This document shows, piece by piece, positions 44,385-52,943 of a stretch of DNA of 64,000 bases. The stretch comes from Hylemonella gracilis ATCC 19624. GTDB taxonomy: Bacteria; Pseudomonadota; Gammaproteobacteria; Burkholderiales; Burkholderiaceae_C. A program made the translations under genes and the position numbers. The notes below the pieces were generated by a model. It searched no databases. It was not told where the DNA came from and saw only the letters and a program-made list of their open reading frames with translations. Within the stretch, counting starts at the first letter, position 1. Each line of letters opens with the position of its first letter. The stretch lies in NCBI RefSeq assembly GCF_000211835.1, contig NZ_AEGR01000109.1, positions 62,001 to 126,000 on the forward strand, in the 5' to 3' direction.

Positions 44385-45613
44385 CGTGCGTACATCCAGC
44401 GCCGAGACCAGGGCAGGTTCGTGGAAAGCCGCCCCGACTTCCCACACAAGACCTGGTAGAGCGAAATTTCGTCATTGTCGAACGCCCACTGGCAGCCGGC
44501 AAGGTAGATGCGCCAGATGCGCCAGGTTTTCTCGGGGACCATGCTGCGCAAGCGGTCGGAGCTGGCCTCGAAGGTGTGGCTCCAAAGCCCGGTGGTGTGC
44601 ATGTAGTGGCGGCGTAGGCTTTCCACGTCCAGGGCTTCCAGGCCACCCAGCTGCATGGTGCGCAGCACGGTGCTGATGTGCGGCAGCTCGCCCTGCGGAA
44701 ACACATAACGATCCACGAAGCGCCCGCCGCCATGCGAGGTTTCGCCGTTGTTCGGGTCGGTCGAGGTGATGCCGTGGTTGAGCACCCAGCCATCGTCGGT
44801 CAGCAGCTTGCGGATCTGGGCGAAGTAGGCTTCCAAGTAGTCCAAGCCCACATGCTCGAACATGCCGACGCTGGTGATGCGGTCAAACTGCCCCTCGACA
44901 TCGCGGTAGTCCTGCAAGCGGATCTCGATCTGCTCCTGCAGGCCGGCCGCCTTGACGCGCTCGGTGGCCAGGTCAAACTGGTTCTGCGACAGCGTCACGC
45001 CCACGCACCGCGCGCCGTACTTCTGCGCGGCGCGGATCACCAGGGCCCCCCAGCCACAGCCGATGTCCAGCAGGCGGTGCCCGGGCCGCACCTGGACCTT
45101 GTTCAGGATGTGGTCGATCTTCTTGAGCTGCGCCTCTTCCAAGGTTTCGTCGCCATTCTCGAAGTAGGCACAGGAATAGACCATGCGCGGGTCCAGCCAG
45201 GTTTGGTAGAAGGCATTGGACACGTCATAGTGGTATTGGATGGCTTCCCTGTCGCTCTTCTTCGTGTGCTTGAAACGCCGCACGATGCGCGTCAACCGTC
45301 CCTCGGTCCGGCTACCGGCCTCGGCCATCTGGTGTCCCAACGCCAGGATGTCGTCGACGCGGCCCTCGACGTCAAGCAGCCCCTCCACGTACGCTTCTCC
45401 CAGACTGTCCAGGCTGGGGCTCAGCAGGTGCTTCACCGCGCTGGGTTTGAGCAAGCGGAGGGTCACCAGCGGGGTGTCGAAGTCACCGAGCTTGATCCCG
45501 CCGCCTTCACCGTGCTTTTCGCCGAACTGCACCAGCACCGGCAAATTGACTTTCTTCTTGAACTTCGTCACCCAGGGGGTCAACGCGGCTTCCATCTTGC
45601 TGGCTGCAACCAT
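44381..45613 (-). CDS. cfa: Cyclopropane-fatty-acyl-phospholipid synthase
   Basis: A 410-residue SAM-dependent enzyme that converts cis double bonds of membrane phospholipids to cyclopropane rings. An N-terminal lipid-binding domain (about 1-115) leads to the methyltransferase domain with I-Q-Y-H-Y-D-V-S-N-A-F-Y, Y-S-C-A-Y-F and the SAM motif L-L-D-I-G-C-G-W-G-A. The ATG at 45613 has a GGAGAG site; a GTG precedes it directly. It heads the cfa-creatininase-PilZ run and is divergent from dsbD. Confidence 0.92.
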   Translation of the reverse strand: MVAASKMEAALTPWVTKFKKKVNLPVLVQFGEKHGEGGGIKLGDFDTPLVTLRLLKPSAVKHLLSPSLDSLGEAYVEGLLDVEGRVDDILALGHQMAEAGSRTEGRLTRIVRRFKHTKKSDREAIQYHYDVSNAFYQTWLDPRMVYSCAYFENGDETLEEAQLKKIDHILNKVQVRPGHRLLDIGCGWGALVIRAAQKYGARCVGVTLSQNQFDLATERVKAAGLQEQIEIRLQDYRDVEGQFDRITSVGMFEHVGLDYLEAYFAQIRKLLTDDGWVLNHGITSTDPNNGETSHGGGRFVDRYVFPQGELPHISTVLRTMQLGGLEALDVESLRRHYMHTTGLWSHTFEASSDRLRSMVPEKTWRIWRIYLAGCQWAFDNDEISLYQVLCGKSGRLSTNLPWSRRWMYAR

Positions 45614-45793
45614 CACTACAACTCTCCACGAACACGGGTTTTGTTACAGGATTGGGACCGATGGAAGATTATGACCACCAGGCACGGACGACACAGCCCC
45701 AAGGATGTAACCGAGGTTTGCAGACCGCTTATTCCTTCACAGGTTTGTGAGATTGCTGGCCCCCCAAGAGGCTGGCTTAACATCGACCGCACC

Positions 45794-48055
45794 ATGCTGC
45801 GTCGTTCGCGTCTTTCGCTTCTCACCCGCTCCTTCCTCGTCGGCGGTCTCGGTCCCCTGGCTCTGCTGATTGCGCTGGCCCTGCACGGCGCGGCGCATGC
45901 CCAAGCGTTCCTGAGCAGTGCAGTCACGGCAGCAGGGGCGGTGGTGCAAACCGGCCAGGCGCGCACTGAACTCGTCGCTCATGCGCCCCAGGGCATCGCG
46001 CCTGGACAGACGTTCTGGGCCGGCCTGCGCATCACGCACGCCAAGGACTGGCACACCTATTGGAAAAATCCCGGCGACTCAGGTCTGCCCACGGAGCTGC
46101 GCTGGACGCTGCCGCCCGGCATCCAGGCCGGCGACATCGCGTGGCCGGCCCCCAAGAAATTCGCGATCGGCGCGAGCGACCCGCTGATCAACTACGGCTA
46201 CGAGGACACGGTGCTGCTGCCCGTGCCTCTGACGGTCAGCAAGGACTTCCAAGTGGCGCCGGGGCAGAACGACTTGACCCTCCAGTTGCAAGCCAGCTGG
46301 CTGATCTGCCGCAGCGAATGCATCCCCGAGGAAGGCCGCTACACCCTGCGCATTCCGCTGCGCGGCGCGACCAGCCTGGACGCCCAGGCCTTTGAAGCCG
46401 CGCGACGGGCGCACCCGCGCGACGTGGCCGCGGGCGAGAGCCACATCCAGATCGAGGGCGACCACCTGAAGCTGACCGTGGCCGACCTGCCGCAGCGACT
46501 GCGAGGGCAGAAGCTGGATGCTTTTCCGGAAACAGTCGATGTGCTGAATCCTTCCGCCCCTTGGACACAGGCTTGGCAAGGCCCGCTGTGGACGGCCACC
46601 TTGCCCCTCTCGGCCCAACGCAGCGCCAGCCCGGTCGTGCTGCCGGTGGTGCTGACCCTGGCACAGGGCTCGGGCTCGGGCTCCGCGCACCGCAACGCCA
46701 GCGAAGGCTGGCGCGTCGAGCTGCCCGTGCGCGGTGCCTGGCCTGCGGCCGCCGCACCCGTGACCCTCTCGCCCGCGCTGCAGGAGGCGCTGGACGCCAA
46801 GGCCGCCAGCACGCGCAGCGCCGCCAACGTGACGTCCCTCACTTTCGGCGCGGCCCTGGCGCTGGCCCTGCTGGGCGGGCTCATCCTCAACCTCATGCCC
46901 TGCGTGCTGCCCATCCTGGCCATCAAGGTGCTGGGCTTCGCCCAGCATGCCCAAGACCGGCGCACCCTGCGCTTGAGCGGATTGGCCTACACGGTGGGCG
47001 TGCTGCTGAGTTTCCTCGCACTGGGCCTCGCTCTGCTGGGTCTGCGCAGCGCGGGGGAAAGCCTGGGCTGGGGTTTCCAGTTGCAGAGCCCGGTCATGGT
47101 GGCCGCGCTGGCCGCGCTCTTCACCGTGATCGCGCTCAACCTCGCGGGCCTGTTCGAATTCGGGCAGATGGCGCCAGGAAGACTGGCCACCCTGCAGGCC
47201 CGCCACCCGATGTTGGATGCAGCGCTCACGGGTGTGCTGGCGGTGATCGTGGCATCGCCCTGCACCGCGCCCTTCATGGGCGCCGCCCTGGGCCTGGCCG
47301 CGACCCAGCCCGCCGCCCAGGCTTTGGCCATCTTCGGTGCGCTGGGTCTGGGCCTGGCCCTGCCCTACCTCGCGGCCACCTTCATTCCGGCCGTGGCCCG
47401 GCTGCTGCCCCGGCCTGGCGCGTGGATGTTGACGCTGCGCCGTGTGCTCGCTTTCCCCATGTTGCTGACCGTGGTCTGGCTGGTCTGGGTGCTCGGCCAC
47501 CAAAGCGGCGTGGACGGCGCCGCGACCTTGCTGGTGCTGCTGGTGCTGCTTGCGGCCCTGGTGTGGGTGCTGACGCTGCAGGGCCGCGCGCGCATCATGC
47601 TGTGCGTCGTGCTGCTCGCCGTGGGCGGCTGGTTCGGGGCCACCTTCGGTCCCTCCATGTTCTCCGACGCGGCGTCCGTCGCTGAATCCCAGACCCGTGA
47701 CGATGCAGGCTGGCAAACCTGGAGCCCGGCGCGTGAACAAGCCCTGCTCGCGCAGGGGCGGGCCGTCTTCGTCGACTACACGGCCGCCTGGTGCGTGACC
47801 TGCCAGGTCAACAAGCGCACCACCTTGAATGACGCGCAGGTGCTCAAAGCCTTCGCCGCGCGCGACGTCGTGCTGCTGCGCGCCGACTGGACGCGACGCG
47901 ACCCGGCCATCGGCGCGGCACTGGCGGCGCTGGGGCGCAGCGGCGTGCCCGTGTACGTGCTGCACCGGCCGGCGCGCCCCGAACCCCGGGCGCCGCTGGT
48001 GTTGTCTGAGTTGCTGAGTCCAGGCGAGGTGCAGCGCGCCCTGGACACCCTGTGA
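45794..48055 (+). CDS. dsbD: DsbD-family protein-disulfide reductase
   Basis: A 753-residue membrane protein that carries electrons from cytosolic thioredoxin to the periplasm. After a signal peptide, the N-terminal periplasmic domain (to about 330) bears C-x-x-x-C in L-I-C-R-S-E-C. The central membrane domain has the redox cysteines in L-M-P-C-V-L-P and S-P-C-T-A-P. The C-terminal thioredoxin-like domain has A-W-C-V-T-C-Q. The start at 45794 was chosen at the signal peptide; the frame stays open far upstream by overlapping cfa antisense, which is not real. ScsB-like variants are possible. Confidence 0.9.
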   Translation: MLRRSRLSLLTRSFLVGGLGPLALLIALALHGAAHAQAFLSSAVTAAGAVVQTGQARTELVAHAPQGIAPGQTFWAGLRITHAKDWHTYWKNPGDSGLPTELRWTLPPGIQAGDIAWPAPKKFAIGASDPLINYGYEDTVLLPVPLTVSKDFQVAPGQNDLTLQLQASWLICRSECIPEEGRYTLRIPLRGATSLDAQAFEAARRAHPRDVAAGESHIQIEGDHLKLTVADLPQRLRGQKLDAFPETVDVLNPSAPWTQAWQGPLWTATLPLSAQRSASPVVLPVVLTLAQGSGSGSAHRNASEGWRVELPVRGAWPAAAAPVTLSPALQEALDAKAASTRSAANVTSLTFGAALALALLGGLILNLMPCVLPILAIKVLGFAQHAQDRRTLRLSGLAYTVGVLLSFLALGLALLGLRSAGESLGWGFQLQSPVMVAALAALFTVIALNLAGLFEFGQMAPGRLATLQARHPMLDAALTGVLAVIVASPCTAPFMGAALGLAATQPAAQALAIFGALGLGLALPYLAATFIPAVARLLPRPGAWMLTLRRVLAFPMLLTVVWLVWVLGHQSGVDGAATLLVLLVLLAALVWVLTLQGRARIMLCVVLLAVGGWFGATFGPSMFSDAASVAESQTRDDAGWQTWSPAREQALLAQGRAVFVDYTAAWCVTCQVNKRTTLNDAQVLKAFAARDVVLLRADWTRRDPAIGAALAALGRSGVPVYVLHRPARPEPRAPLVLSELLSPGEVQRALDTL

Positions 48056-48736: not shown

Positions 48737-49099
48737 ATGAGCGAGACCCAAACGACCCCAGAGGCCCAAGAGCCCATCTACGTGCCCCATGAAGCATTCC
48801 GTGCCGGCCTGCCGGCCGGACAGTTCCGGCTGATCGTCAACCCTGAGCGCGCCAGCAAATACGTCAAGCACCGCCTGATGCTGACGGCGTTGATCCTGCC
48901 CGTTGTCGGCGCCGGCATCGGCATGGCTTGGTACGGCTACCCCTGGATCGGCCTGGTGATGGTGTTGCTGGGCGTGGTGGCGCACCGCATCGTCGCGCGC
49001 CAGGCGCCCAAGATCCTGCTGCACATGGCCTTGCGCGACGCCAAGATCTACCACGAAGCCATCGACTTCGAGATTCTGGAAGTGCGCCGCGCCCGCTGA
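48737..49099 (+). CDS. Conserved hypothetical two-helix membrane protein
   Basis: A 120-residue protein with two transmembrane helices (about residues 47-67 and 69-85) flanked by charged ends. No enzymatic motif is seen. It stands between the redoxin and hemE on the same strand, and no function can be assigned. Confidence 0.7.
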
Positions 49100-49256
49100 G
49101 TCCTCGAGTGCGGGGACCAACGGGTCGCCACGGGGCCACACCAAGGGGACGAACACCCCAGTTCTGGCAAAGCGCGGTGCATGCCTGCGACCGGGGGCAT
49201 CCAGCCACTCGCCGTGCGCGAAGGTGGGGGCTCACAATCCTTGCGACAATCGCGGC

Positions 49257-50366
49257 ATGACCCGCTTTGCCGACCTGAAAAACGACCGCTTCCTGCGTGC
49301 CTGCCTGCGCCAGGCCACCGACTACACCCCGCTGTGGCTGATGCGCCAAGCCGGACGCTATCTGCCCGAATACCGGGCCACCCGCGAGCGCGCGGGCAGC
49401 TTCATGGGCCTGGCCACGAACGTGGACTACGCCACCGAAGTCACCTTGCAGCCCTTGGACCGCTACGCGCTGGACGCTGCCATCCTGTTCTCCGACATCC
49501 TCACCGTGCCCGATGCCATGGGCCTGGGCCTGTCCTTCGCCCAGGGCGAAGGACCCAGGTTCGCCTCGCCCGTGCGTGACGAGGCTGCCGTGGCGGCACT
49601 GGCCGTGCCGGACCTGGACAAGCTGCGCTACGTCTTCGACGCCGTGACGTCCATCCGCAAGGCGCTGGACGGGCGCGTGCCCTTGATCGGCTTCTCGGGC
49701 AGCCCATGGACGCTGGCCTGCTACATGGTCGAAGGCGCGGGCTCGGACGACTACCGCCTGGTCAAGAGCATGCTCTACGCGCGCCCCGACCTGATGCACC
49801 GCATCTTGCAAGTGAACGCCGACGCCGTGGCGGCCTACCTCAACGCGCAGATCGACGCGGGCGCGCAAGCGGTGATGGTCTTCGACAGCTGGGGCGGCGT
49901 GCTGGCCGATGGGGTGTTCCAGCAGTTCAGCCTGGCCTACACGGCGCGCGTGCTGGCCCAGCTGAAACGCACCGGCGTGGATGGCCAGGTGGTGCCTCGC
50001 ATCGTCTTCACCAAGGGCGGCGGCCTCTGGCTGCATGAAATGGGCGCGCTGGATTGCGAGGTGCTGGGCCTGGACTGGACTGTGAACCTCGGCACGGCTC
50101 GCGCTTTGGTGGGCGAGGGTCCGCGGGGCAAGGCGCTGCAAGGCAACCTGGACCCGAATGTGCTGTTCGCGCCGCCCACCGCCATCGAGGCGGAAGTGGC
50201 CAAGGTGCTGGCCAGCTTCGGCGCGCCCCACACCGACCCCTCGCGCCCCGGCCCCACGCACATCTTCAACCTGGGCCACGGCATCAGCCAGCACACCCCG
50301 CCCGAGCATGTGACGGCCTTGGTGGAAGCCGTGCACACGCAATCCCGTGCGCTGCGGCGCGCCTGA
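49257..50366 (+). CDS. hemE: Uroporphyrinogen decarboxylase
   Basis: A 369-residue enzyme that decarboxylates uroporphyrinogen III to coproporphyrinogen III in haem synthesis. Diagnostic segments are [15 protein letters not shown] (N-terminal signature), [21 protein letters not shown] and the C-terminal N-L-G-H-G-I. The start [10 protein letters not shown] was chosen over an 11-codon extension. Confidence 0.96.
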
Positions 50367-50436
50367 AACACGGCCGGGGCGTGGGCGAATTCGACCACAC
50401 CTCGGAACGGGCTTTGTCAAGGGGGCGCGGGCTTAC

Positions 50437-50445
50437 TTATGCACA
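50437..50445 (+). promoter_or_regulatory. DnaA box (TTATGCACA)
   Basis: The nine-mer TTATGCACA fits the DnaA-box consensus TTATNCACA. It lies inside the inverted repeat GCTTAC...GTAAGC (50431-50457). Confidence 0.5.
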
Positions 50446-50571
50446 AAATCCGTAAGCACTGTGACCTGGCTCAGCCCAACGGCACTCGCCTCGCTACAAA
50501 AGCCATAGCGCATCTAAGTTGTTGATTCAGATAGAAATCCTAAATTGCTTTTTTCAAAGGCAATCTGTTGG

Positions 50572-50592
50572 AAGCCTTGATTTACAAGGCTT
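50572..50592. repeat. Perfect hairpin in hemE-priA island
   Basis: AAGCCTTG-ATTTA-CAAGGCTT forms an eight-pair perfect stem with a five-base AT loop. No T-run follows, so it is not a classical terminator. Confidence 0.55.
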
Positions 50593-50624
50593 GCGCGCGT
50601 TTGTCAGGTCAGCTTTCAACAAAG

Positions 50625-50633
50625 TTATCCACA
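50625..50633 (+). promoter_or_regulatory. Perfect DnaA box (TTATCCACA)
   Basis: The nine-mer TTATCCACA is the strongest DnaA box sequence known from E. coli. It lies 106 bases before the priA start. Confidence 0.6.
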
Positions 50634-50738
50634 GAAGTACTGGATTAGTTTTGCAACCCTTGCAGATCAAGCACTTAGCCGCGCTTTCGCCAAACCGAAC
50701 CAAGATCACGGCCTAAGTCGCATCACACCCGCTCACGC

Positions 50739-52943
50739 ATGGCGCACCTGCTCCCCATCCTGGTTCCCACGCCAGCGCACAGCAAGATTCACCTGGCCGG
50801 GGGCATGCTGAGCTGGTTGAGTGAGCAGACACTTTCACCAGGAATGCTGGTGCGCGTGCCCTTGGGCAAGCGTGAGGTGTTGGGCATGGTGTGGGATCGC
50901 CCCACCGAGACCCGCGACACGCCCACGCACGCGGTGGATGCGGACAAGCTGCGCCCGATCACCGAAGCCCTGACGGCGCTGCCGCCGCTGTCCGAGAGCT
51001 GGCGGCGGCTGGTCGACTTCACCGCGCGTTATTACCAGCGCTCGGCGGGCGAGGTGGCCCTGGCCGCCTTGCCGCCCGCGCTGCGAGAGCTCAGCGGCGA
51101 GCAACTGGCGCGCCGGCTCAAAAAGCAGCTCCGCGCTGGCCCCAACCCTGAGTCAGCCGGCACGCCCGTCAGCAACTTGCCCACGCTCACGGCCGAACAG
51201 GCCACCGCGCTCGAGGCCCTGGCGCAGGGTGATGCCAGCGCACCCTTCTTGCTGTTCGGCGCCACGGGCAGCGGCAAGACCGAGGTTTATCTGCGCGCCG
51301 TGCAGGCGATGTTGGCGCGTGACCCGCAAGCCCAGGCGCTGGTGATGGTGCCGGAGATCAACCTGACGCCGCAGCTGGAAGCCCGCTTCGTCGAACGCTT
51401 CGGCGCAGCCGCCGTGGTCTCCTTGCACAGCGGCATGACCAACCCACAGCGTTTGCAGAGCTGGCTGGCGGCGCACGGTCGGCCCACCGAAGAGGGCGAG
51501 GCAGCGGGCGTCATCGCGAGCCCGGTGCGCATCGTGCTGGGCACGCGCATGGCCATCTTCGCCTCCCTGCCGCGCCTGCGGCTGATCGTGGTTGACGAGG
51601 AACACGACCCCAGCTACAAACAACAGGAGGGCGCGCGTTACTCGGCGCGCGACCTCGCCATCTACCGCGGCCGGCTGGAAAACGCCCAAGTCATCCTCGG
51701 CTCGGCCACGCCCTCGCTGGAAAGCTGGCACCACAGCCGGCCCGCCGAACAGGGTGGGCGCTACGTCCGCCTGGCCATGCCCAACCGCGTGGGCGCCATC
51801 GCCCGACCCGATGCGCCGGGCGGCGGCCTGCCCCTGGTACGGCGGGTGGACATGCGGCACCAGCCCAAGGGCGCGGTTGTTTCGCCCCCCTTGCTCGCGG
51901 CCATGCGGGAACGCATCGCGCGCGGCGAGCAGTGCCTGGTCTTCCTGAACCGGCGGGGTTACGCCCCCGTGCTGCATTGCGCCGAATGCGACTGGAAGAG
52001 CGAGTGCCCGCACTGCAGCGCCTACCGCGTCTTCCACAAGATCGACCGCACGCTGCGCTGCCACCACTGCGGCTACACCGAGCGCGTGCCGCGCGCCTGC
52101 CCGTCCTGCGGCAGCCCGGACATCCGCCCGATCGGACGCGGGACCGAACAGATCGAGGAACACCTGGCCGAGCTGCTGGCCGATGTGCGCCGTCCTCTGG
52201 GCGCGGCGGCGACCGGCGAAGCGGGGACCGGCGGCGGCCCGGTGCGCATCGCGCGCATCGACGCCGACACCACGCGGCGCAAGGGCGAGCTGCAAGCCCA
52301 GCTGGCTCAAGTGCACGAGGGCGAGGTGGACGTGCTGGTGGGCACGCAGATGATCGCCAAGGGCCATGATTTCCGGCGCATCACCCTGGTCGCCGTCATC
52401 AACCCGGACACGGCGCTGTTCTCCAGCGACTTCCGCGCGCCGGAACGCCTGTTTTCCCTGCTGATGCAGGTTGCGGGCCGGGCGGGGCGGGACAGCGCGG
52501 CCGGGGCCAGCGAAGTCTGGGTCCAGACCGAGCAACCAACGCACCCGCTCTACGAGGCGTTGAAGCGGCACGACTACCCCGCTTTCGCGGCGCAACAGTT
52601 GCTGGAACGCGAGCAGGCGGGCCTGCCGCCGTTCAGCTTCCAGGCCCTGGTGCGGACGGAAGCCCGCACTCAGGAGGGCGCCCAGGCCTTCCTCAACGCT
52701 GCCAGCGCCTTGGGCCAGGACGCGGCGACCCCGCTTGCGGTGACGCTGTACCCCGCGGTGCCCATGAGCGTGCAACGCGTGGCCAACGTGGAGCGGGCGC
52801 AGATGCTGGTGGAGAGCGCCTCGCGCGCGGCGCTGCAACGCTTTCTCTCGGATTGGCAGGCCACGCTGCACGACCTGCGTGGCACGCCCGAAGGGCAGGG
52901 CATCCTGCGCTGGGCGGTGGATGTGGACCCGCTGGCGATCTGA
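50739..52943 (+). CDS. priA: Primosomal helicase PriA
   Basis: A 734-residue 3'-5' helicase that reloads the replisome at stalled forks. N-terminal DNA-binding region, Walker A (G-A-T-G-S-G-K-T-E-V-Y) near residue 178, D-E-E-H box, and eight zinc-binding cysteines in four C-x-x-C pairs (C-A-E-C, C-P-H-C, C-H-H-C, C-P-S-C) inserted in the helicase core are all present. It follows the AT-rich island with DnaA boxes. Confidence 0.96.
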   Translation: MAHLLPILVPTPAHSKIHLAGGMLSWLSEQTLSPGMLVRVPLGKREVLGMVWDRPTETRDTPTHAVDADKLRPITEALTALPPLSESWRRLVDFTARYYQRSAGEVALAALPPALRELSGEQLARRLKKQLRAGPNPESAGTPVSNLPTLTAEQATALEALAQGDASAPFLLFGATGSGKTEVYLRAVQAMLARDPQAQALVMVPEINLTPQLEARFVERFGAAAVVSLHSGMTNPQRLQSWLAAHGRPTEEGEAAGVIASPVRIVLGTRMAIFASLPRLRLIVVDEEHDPSYKQQEGARYSARDLAIYRGRLENAQVILGSATPSLESWHHSRPAEQGGRYVRLAMPNRVGAIARPDAPGGGLPLVRRVDMRHQPKGAVVSPPLLAAMRERIARGEQCLVFLNRRGYAPVLHCAECDWKSECPHCSAYRVFHKIDRTLRCHHCGYTERVPRACPSCGSPDIRPIGRGTEQIEEHLAELLADVRRPLGAAATGEAGTGGGPVRIARIDADTTRRKGELQAQLAQVHEGEVDVLVGTQMIAKGHDFRRITLVAVINPDTALFSSDFRAPERLFSLLMQVAGRAGRDSAAGASEVWVQTEQPTHPLYEALKRHDYPAFAAQQLLEREQAGLPPFSFQALVRTEARTQEGAQAFLNAASALGQDAATPLAVTLYPAVPMSVQRVANVERAQMLVESASRAALQRFLSDWQATLHDLRGTPEGQGILRWAVDVDPLAI

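Follow-up and report, generated by a model that had tools for sequence, protein, structure and literature searches.

The gap between hemE and priA in Hylemonella gracilis ATCC 19624 probably represents a DARS2-like DnaA-reactivating sequence, furnished with an IHF site and an additional, far DnaA box. This reading is drawn from the sequence of the gap, which combines a three-box core with an IHF consensus site 110 bases and a far box 188 bases upstream, and from the retention of these spacings in relatives. Membership in the DARS group is likely and not proven, because the opposed box of the core, which is essential in E. coli, is degenerate (6/9 positions) in the stretch of 64,000 nucleotides analysed here (hereafter the window).

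Most of what is established about chromosomal sites that reactivate DnaA comes from E. coli. The available portions of three papers state, respectively, that many proteobacteria have conserved DARS-like sequences (PMC10380432), that the DARS2 spacings are common to E. coli-proximal beta or gamma species (PMC5742627) and that only E. coli-related gamma species have the DARS2 core (PMC4245941). A literature search of partial coverage, and hence weak evidence of absence in print, returned no description of sites of this kind beside priA or xseA in the Betaproteobacteria. What appears to be new is that a DARS-type module has a phased layout and includes a far box.

The hemE-priA gap and its surroundings

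The gap spans 372 bases (50367-50738) and has a GC content of 0.513, against 0.658 for the whole window, with a value of 0.39 over positions 50515-50660. The first-pass annotation had described a low-GC gap with an AT-rich middle, two DnaA boxes and an eight-pair hairpin, and each of these features was recovered (Table 1); the observation is confirmed, and was understated. It had also placed the first box inside an inverted repeat. Six pairs can indeed be seen around this box, but by eye the two closest genomes have a shorter version of the repeat and the other rows show none, and it is probably incidental.

The density of DnaA boxes, which had been proposed as a check, proved unremarkable, with three occurrences of TTWTNCACA in the window against 0.99 expected, a count equalled in 8 of 100 shuffles. 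Likewise, the perfect box TTATCCACA occurs five times in the 3.6-Mb genome, with eight occurrences for the backwards-read control. Two of the five flank dnaA, one lies in the hemE-priA gap, one in the xseA/exbB gap and one on a further contig (C87:150968-150976), the last being away from dnaA and both modules, with no profile match nearby at E ≤ 1. The weight of the evidence lies in the conservation of the boxes, not in their number.

An RNA element at the gap was rejected, as the sole match in an Rfam scan of positions 49000-52000 at E ≤ 1 was at chance level and far below its gathering score. Upstream of hemE, positions 44678-48055 encode a 1125-amino-acid protein with a DsbD-like C-terminal part (below the family cut-off), directly followed by a ResA-like thioredoxin-fold protein beginning at 48052.

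Table 1. Features of the hemE-priA locus and of the second module copy in the same genome (offsets in bases from box II)
Feature	Position	Strand	Evidence or remark
hemE, uroporphyrinogen decarboxylase	49224..50366	+	TIGR01464, 394 bits
Whole module, far DnaA box to second IHF-like site	50437..50677	+	Profile R1, genus alignment
Far DnaA box TTATGCACA	50437..50445	+	Offset -188
IHF consensus site IBS1, TAAGTTGTTGATT on the plus strand	50515..50527	-	Offset -110; 9/9 positions
Inverted repeat of 8 pairs, AAGCCTTG-ATTTA-CAAGGCTT	50572..50592		Retained in most rows of the genus alignment (by eye)
Weak DnaA box CTTTCAACA, box III equivalent	50613..50621	+	Offset -12; 6/9
DnaA box TTATCCACA, box II equivalent (anchor)	50625..50633	+	26/26 genus genomes
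Degenerate opposed DnaA box, box I equivalent, TAATCCAGT on the minus strand	50639..50647	-	Offset +14; 6/9
Second IHF-like site IBS2, GATCAAGCACTTA	50665..50677	+	Offset +40; 8/9
priA, replication restart helicase	50739..52943	+	NF004067, 809 bits; TIGR00595
Second module copy (L174)	G000:C26:7111-7267		xseA / exbB-exbD-lpxK gap, other contig

Anatomy and conservation of the module

A profile (R1) built from 28 such gaps matches the window at 50430-50647 with 88.2 bits, the window being one of the 28 rows from which it was built. The gap holds tandem boxes II and III at a fixed spacing, as expected of DARS (the -12 box matching at 6/9 positions), an IHF site at a set distance from the core, as in DARS2-type sites (9/9 at -110), and boxes on both sides of the IHF site, as in datA (boxes at -188 and 0, IHF at -110). 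A head-to-head box I at +14 matches at 6/9 positions in the window and at 6/9 or better in 13/26 genus genomes. Both IHF sites were scored against the IHF consensus. Genes for the alpha and beta subunits of IHF are present in the genome, scoring above the cut-offs of NF001401 and NF001222 and just below those of TIGR00987 and TIGR00988 (for the stretch given).

Conservation of the gap in relatives, also named as a check, was upheld at the genus level. The box TTATCCACA is kept in all 26 genomes, as are IBS2 and a -12 box matching at 6/9 positions or better, while the first box, as TTATGCACA or TTATTCACA, is found in 24/26 genomes and lies 187-188 bases upstream in all 24. In the two exceptions, one sequence ends at a contig edge (L017) and the box is changed in the other (L022). 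Further kept blocks in the genus alignment are TAAGTnnTTGATT, the hairpin, TCAACAAAGTTATCCACAG and ATCAAGnACTTAG, with TAAGTnnTTGATT and ATCAAGnACTTAG fitting the IHF consensus in opposite directions. The eight-pair palindrome, located between the IHF site and the core, could bind another dimeric protein.

Beyond the genus, the best 80 of 590 priA relatives (the named loci) were chosen by protein similarity, the gap not being used. Both boxes recur 5' of priA in many of these loci, with Comamonadaceae, Paraburkholderia, Cupriavidus, Limnobacter and Thiobacillus among them. Profile R1 reaches at least 20 bits in 74/80 named loci, but 27 of these match by construction because they also built the profile, and the independent figure is 47/53. 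Of the remaining loci, two match weakly (L109, L119), three lack a match (L051, L097, L112) and one is without upstream DNA (L079). In L103 the match lies 1.4 kb ahead of priA. The noise level can be gauged from three matches on the opposite strand, of 13-17 bits, that overlap modules in named loci.

Anchoring the 74 named priA-locus elements on box II reveals a layout of fixed offsets. The forward box at -12 stands 10.5 sd over background and the opposed box at +14 stands 6.3 sd over it, the latter matching at 6/9 positions or better in 35/74 elements; at offsets +30 to +109 this count averages 0.55 and never exceeds 8. At -11 the reverse reading gives a signal (7.0 sd) as strong as that at +14; it may be an echo of the overlapping -12 box. 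The opposed box falls below 6/9 in the other 39/74 copies, including all twelve name-listed rows of the Burkholderia/Cupriavidus/Bordetella kind. An IHF consensus of at least 8/9 positions is found in 63/74 elements, 59 of them at -109 to -112 (control windows 13/74 and 1/74), and a second IHF site in 43/74, mostly at +40 (control window 0/74). Furthermore, a perfect TTWTNCACA far box occurs at -205 to -150 in 59/74 elements (control window 1/74). Its offsets form two groups, -185 to -191 and -175 to -179, with means of -187.9 and -176.9, approximately one helical turn apart, as is expected if the proteins must share one face of the helix. The idea that IBS2 substitutes for a lost opposed box was refuted, since the two go together (Fisher p = 0.001), IBS2 being present in 27/35 elements with an opposed box and in 15/39 without.

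Distribution and genomic placement

Profile R1 matches 146/150 Burkholderiales genomes, 112 of them two or more times, and 127/140 genomes of the wider class. In a sample of the phylum it matches 38/60 genomes, comprising 13/15 in the class, 13/14 in one family outside it (f188) and 12/31 of the rest, where matches are mostly weak. Genomes of this family (e.g. G346) carry up to nine matches each, and many of these matches span the IHF site and the core without the far box.

Placement was counted for 150 R1 matches listed, in 102 genomes, with more matches existing. Among these, 58 (56 genomes) are upstream of priA, all on the priA strand, and 51 (50 genomes) lie at the xseA gap, all directed away from xseA, while 41 fall elsewhere, although another test puts two of these on the priA side. 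Twenty-five genomes have both a priA-side and an xseA-side copy among the matches listed. The limits applied were a gene start within 1.8 kb (priA) or 0.7 kb (xseA) of the match. XseA positions were used for part of 145 genomes, by eye covering all genomes with a match classed as elsewhere, with the exceptions of one genome with no XseA match (G149) and one with XseA on another contig (G082). The first 13 second-match loci fetched agree with this pattern, eleven being at xseA or xseA/exbB, one being a hemE/priA copy and one neither. In H. gracilis itself, the xseA-gap copy has an opposed box of 6/9 and a -12 box of 7/9.

Outside the Burkholderiales, 12/28 of the best loci of the class (the gamma loci) likewise precede priA, while others adjoin uvrB, rmuC, rapA, ksgA/aroE or a dus gene, several flanking genes being without a Pfam match. 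The opposed box matches at 6/9 positions or better in 22/22 xseA copies and 25/25 gamma copies, often at 9/9 in the latter, these counts being non-independent in that the copies were picked by R1, which covers the core, and the gamma count leaving out three partial matches (L225, L233, L236) of the 28 loci. A perfect far box is present in 0/22 xseA copies.

Modules occur in tandem, in two to four copies, in 14/74 named priA loci. For example, four precede priA in Acidovorax sp. A1169 (L055:1556-2812). An extra module copy is found just downstream of priA at L041:5276-5480. In complete or nearly complete Burkholderiales genomes, and with some genome sizes rounded, the median arm position of the priA copies is 0.17 (12 copies in 11 genomes; range 0.04-0.88) and that of the xseA copies 0.63 (11 copies; range 0.17-0.99).

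Comparison with DARS2, DARS1 and datA of E. coli

Seven 50-kb stretches of the E. coli K-12 chromosome (350 kb), chosen for oriC, priA, xseA, DARS1, DARS2 and datA, were searched with R1. At E ≤ 10 four matches were obtained, to the core and IHF site of DARS2 (2.5e-6), DARS1 (7e-5), other DARS2 boxes (4e-4; 17 bits) and datA (0.005; 13 bits); the scores of the latter two are near the noise level. The four stretches without known sites (200 kb, holding oriC, priA and xseA) gave no match at this threshold. The DARS2 and DARS1 matches extend over 140-147 bases and that of datA over 56 bases, covering the core pair only. In the available text of PMC4585315 a 35-base stretch of DARS2 was deleted as 'DnaA box I-III', and the R1 match spans all but two bases of this deletion.

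Like the module, DARS2 (rppH-mutH) is intergenic and has a three-box core at -12/0/+14, with the last box opposed (degenerate in the window), and an IHF site approximately a hundred bases away. It differs in that its IHF site is at -99 and not -110, about one helical turn nearer the core, in having no box at -188, and in adjoining mutH whereas the module adjoins priA or xseA. DARS2 also has Fis sites (FBS2-3), the comparison here covering DnaA boxes and IHF sites. The mutH-side location was rejected as the ancestral one, with R1 matching 0/28 gamma mutH loci at E ≤ 0.05. DARS1 (bioD-uvrB) shares the core spacing of -12/0/+14 and has a box-like TTTTTAACA at -189 and a weak IHF-like sequence at -111, but the former matches at only 7/8 positions and the latter at only 7/9. 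The available portions of PMC5742627 and PMC4245941 name IHF for DARS2 and not for DARS1. Similarly, datA (glyY-queG) has a tandem weak and strong box, an IHF site and another box facing the same way, but lacks an opposed box at +14 (4/9), and its R1 match is confined to the box pair. The arm positions of datA, DARS2 and DARS1 in E. coli are 0.20, 0.41 and 0.66, respectively.

Functional interpretation

The first-pass annotation had offered a DnaA-titrating or DnaA-reactivating site, a DnaA-controlled priA promoter and a part of the origin as options for the gap. DnaA reactivation is the best supported, in that the core spacing is that of DARS2 and DARS1 and the IHF site is near its position in DARS2. 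The head-to-head box pair is described as a hallmark of DARS that is essential to function, and IHF and Fis as required by DARS2, in the available portions of PMC5742627 and PMC10380432. The main doubt regarding this reading concerns the same box pair, as the opposed box is weak in the window copy and lost in many named copies. Given this weakness, the priA-side copy could instead have a datA-like or purely titrating role, with the xseA copy retaining the fuller core. On the datA-like reading, which we regard as unlikely but worth weighing, the IHF bend would join DnaA molecules on the far box and box II, and ATP-DnaA would be hydrolysed after initiation or DnaA would be titrated. Same-direction boxes flanking the IHF site, as in datA, the weak match of R1 to datA itself over the core pair, and the opposed box, weak in over half of the named copies, are consistent with such a role, as is the origin-near location of the priA copies in 9/11 complete genomes counted, the median being close to the arm position of datA. 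Against it, datA has no opposed box at +14 and is matched over a far shorter length than DARS2 and DARS1, and the xseA and gamma copies examined, which were picked by R1, retain the opposed box.

A region controlling the transcription of priA through DnaA and IHF would account for the orientation of all 58 priA-side matches among those listed and for the recurrence of the module upstream of priA among the best gamma loci. This is nevertheless improbable as the main function, considering that, among the matches listed, the 51 copies at the xseA gap face away from xseA and a further 41 have other locations (two of these in fact priA-side), that named priA loci can hold as many as four consecutive copies, and that the L041 copy sits behind priA. 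A scan for promoters and terminators over 50300-50800, with a weak search for sigma-70-like sites, found none. A mere priA promoter fits the evidence poorly, and DnaA control of a priA promoter may be a side effect. An AT-rich stretch beside DnaA boxes could also suggest part of a replication origin, and the cumulative GC skew has a shallow low near 50-52 kb of the window, but this low is equalled near 60-62 kb. Moreover, dnaA is on another contig, and in a complete relative (G003; 400 kb examined) the cumulative skew minimum, at which an oriC is expected, is at dnaA, 118 kb from the site. With the arm positions of the priA copies also widely spread, and R1 finding neither the dnaA region of the same genome nor oriC of E. 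coli, an origin is extremely improbable, and this option was rejected on the skew and the position of dnaA.

For the DARS2-like reading, a mechanism can be proposed by analogy with E. coli DARS2. IHF would bend the DNA, allowing several ADP-DnaA molecules to assemble on the core, and contact between opposed DnaA molecules would cause ADP to be dropped. The empty DnaA would then leave and take up ATP, so that more ATP-DnaA would be on hand when oriC next fires. A further DnaA molecule is probably contributed by the far box, from across the IHF bend. The position upstream of priA would be inherited, and unnecessary for the chemistry of ADP release.

It is possible, though we hold this tentatively and consider it rather doubtful, that DARS1, DARS2 and datA are relocated and decayed descendants of one ancestral module, consisting of a far box, an IHF site and a three-box core, which is still present in many Gammaproteobacteria. 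The pair often found in Burkholderiales, with a priA copy near the origin and an xseA copy in the terminus half, might then be an ancestral dosage-based timer of DnaA recharging, which tandem amplification would have adjusted in some lineages. A conserved and locatable module with kept spacing provides a target for testing the generality of the DnaA ATP/ADP switch, and would also permit the dependence of this switch on chromosome position to be tested beyond E. coli, with the tandem copies serving as natural dosage variants.
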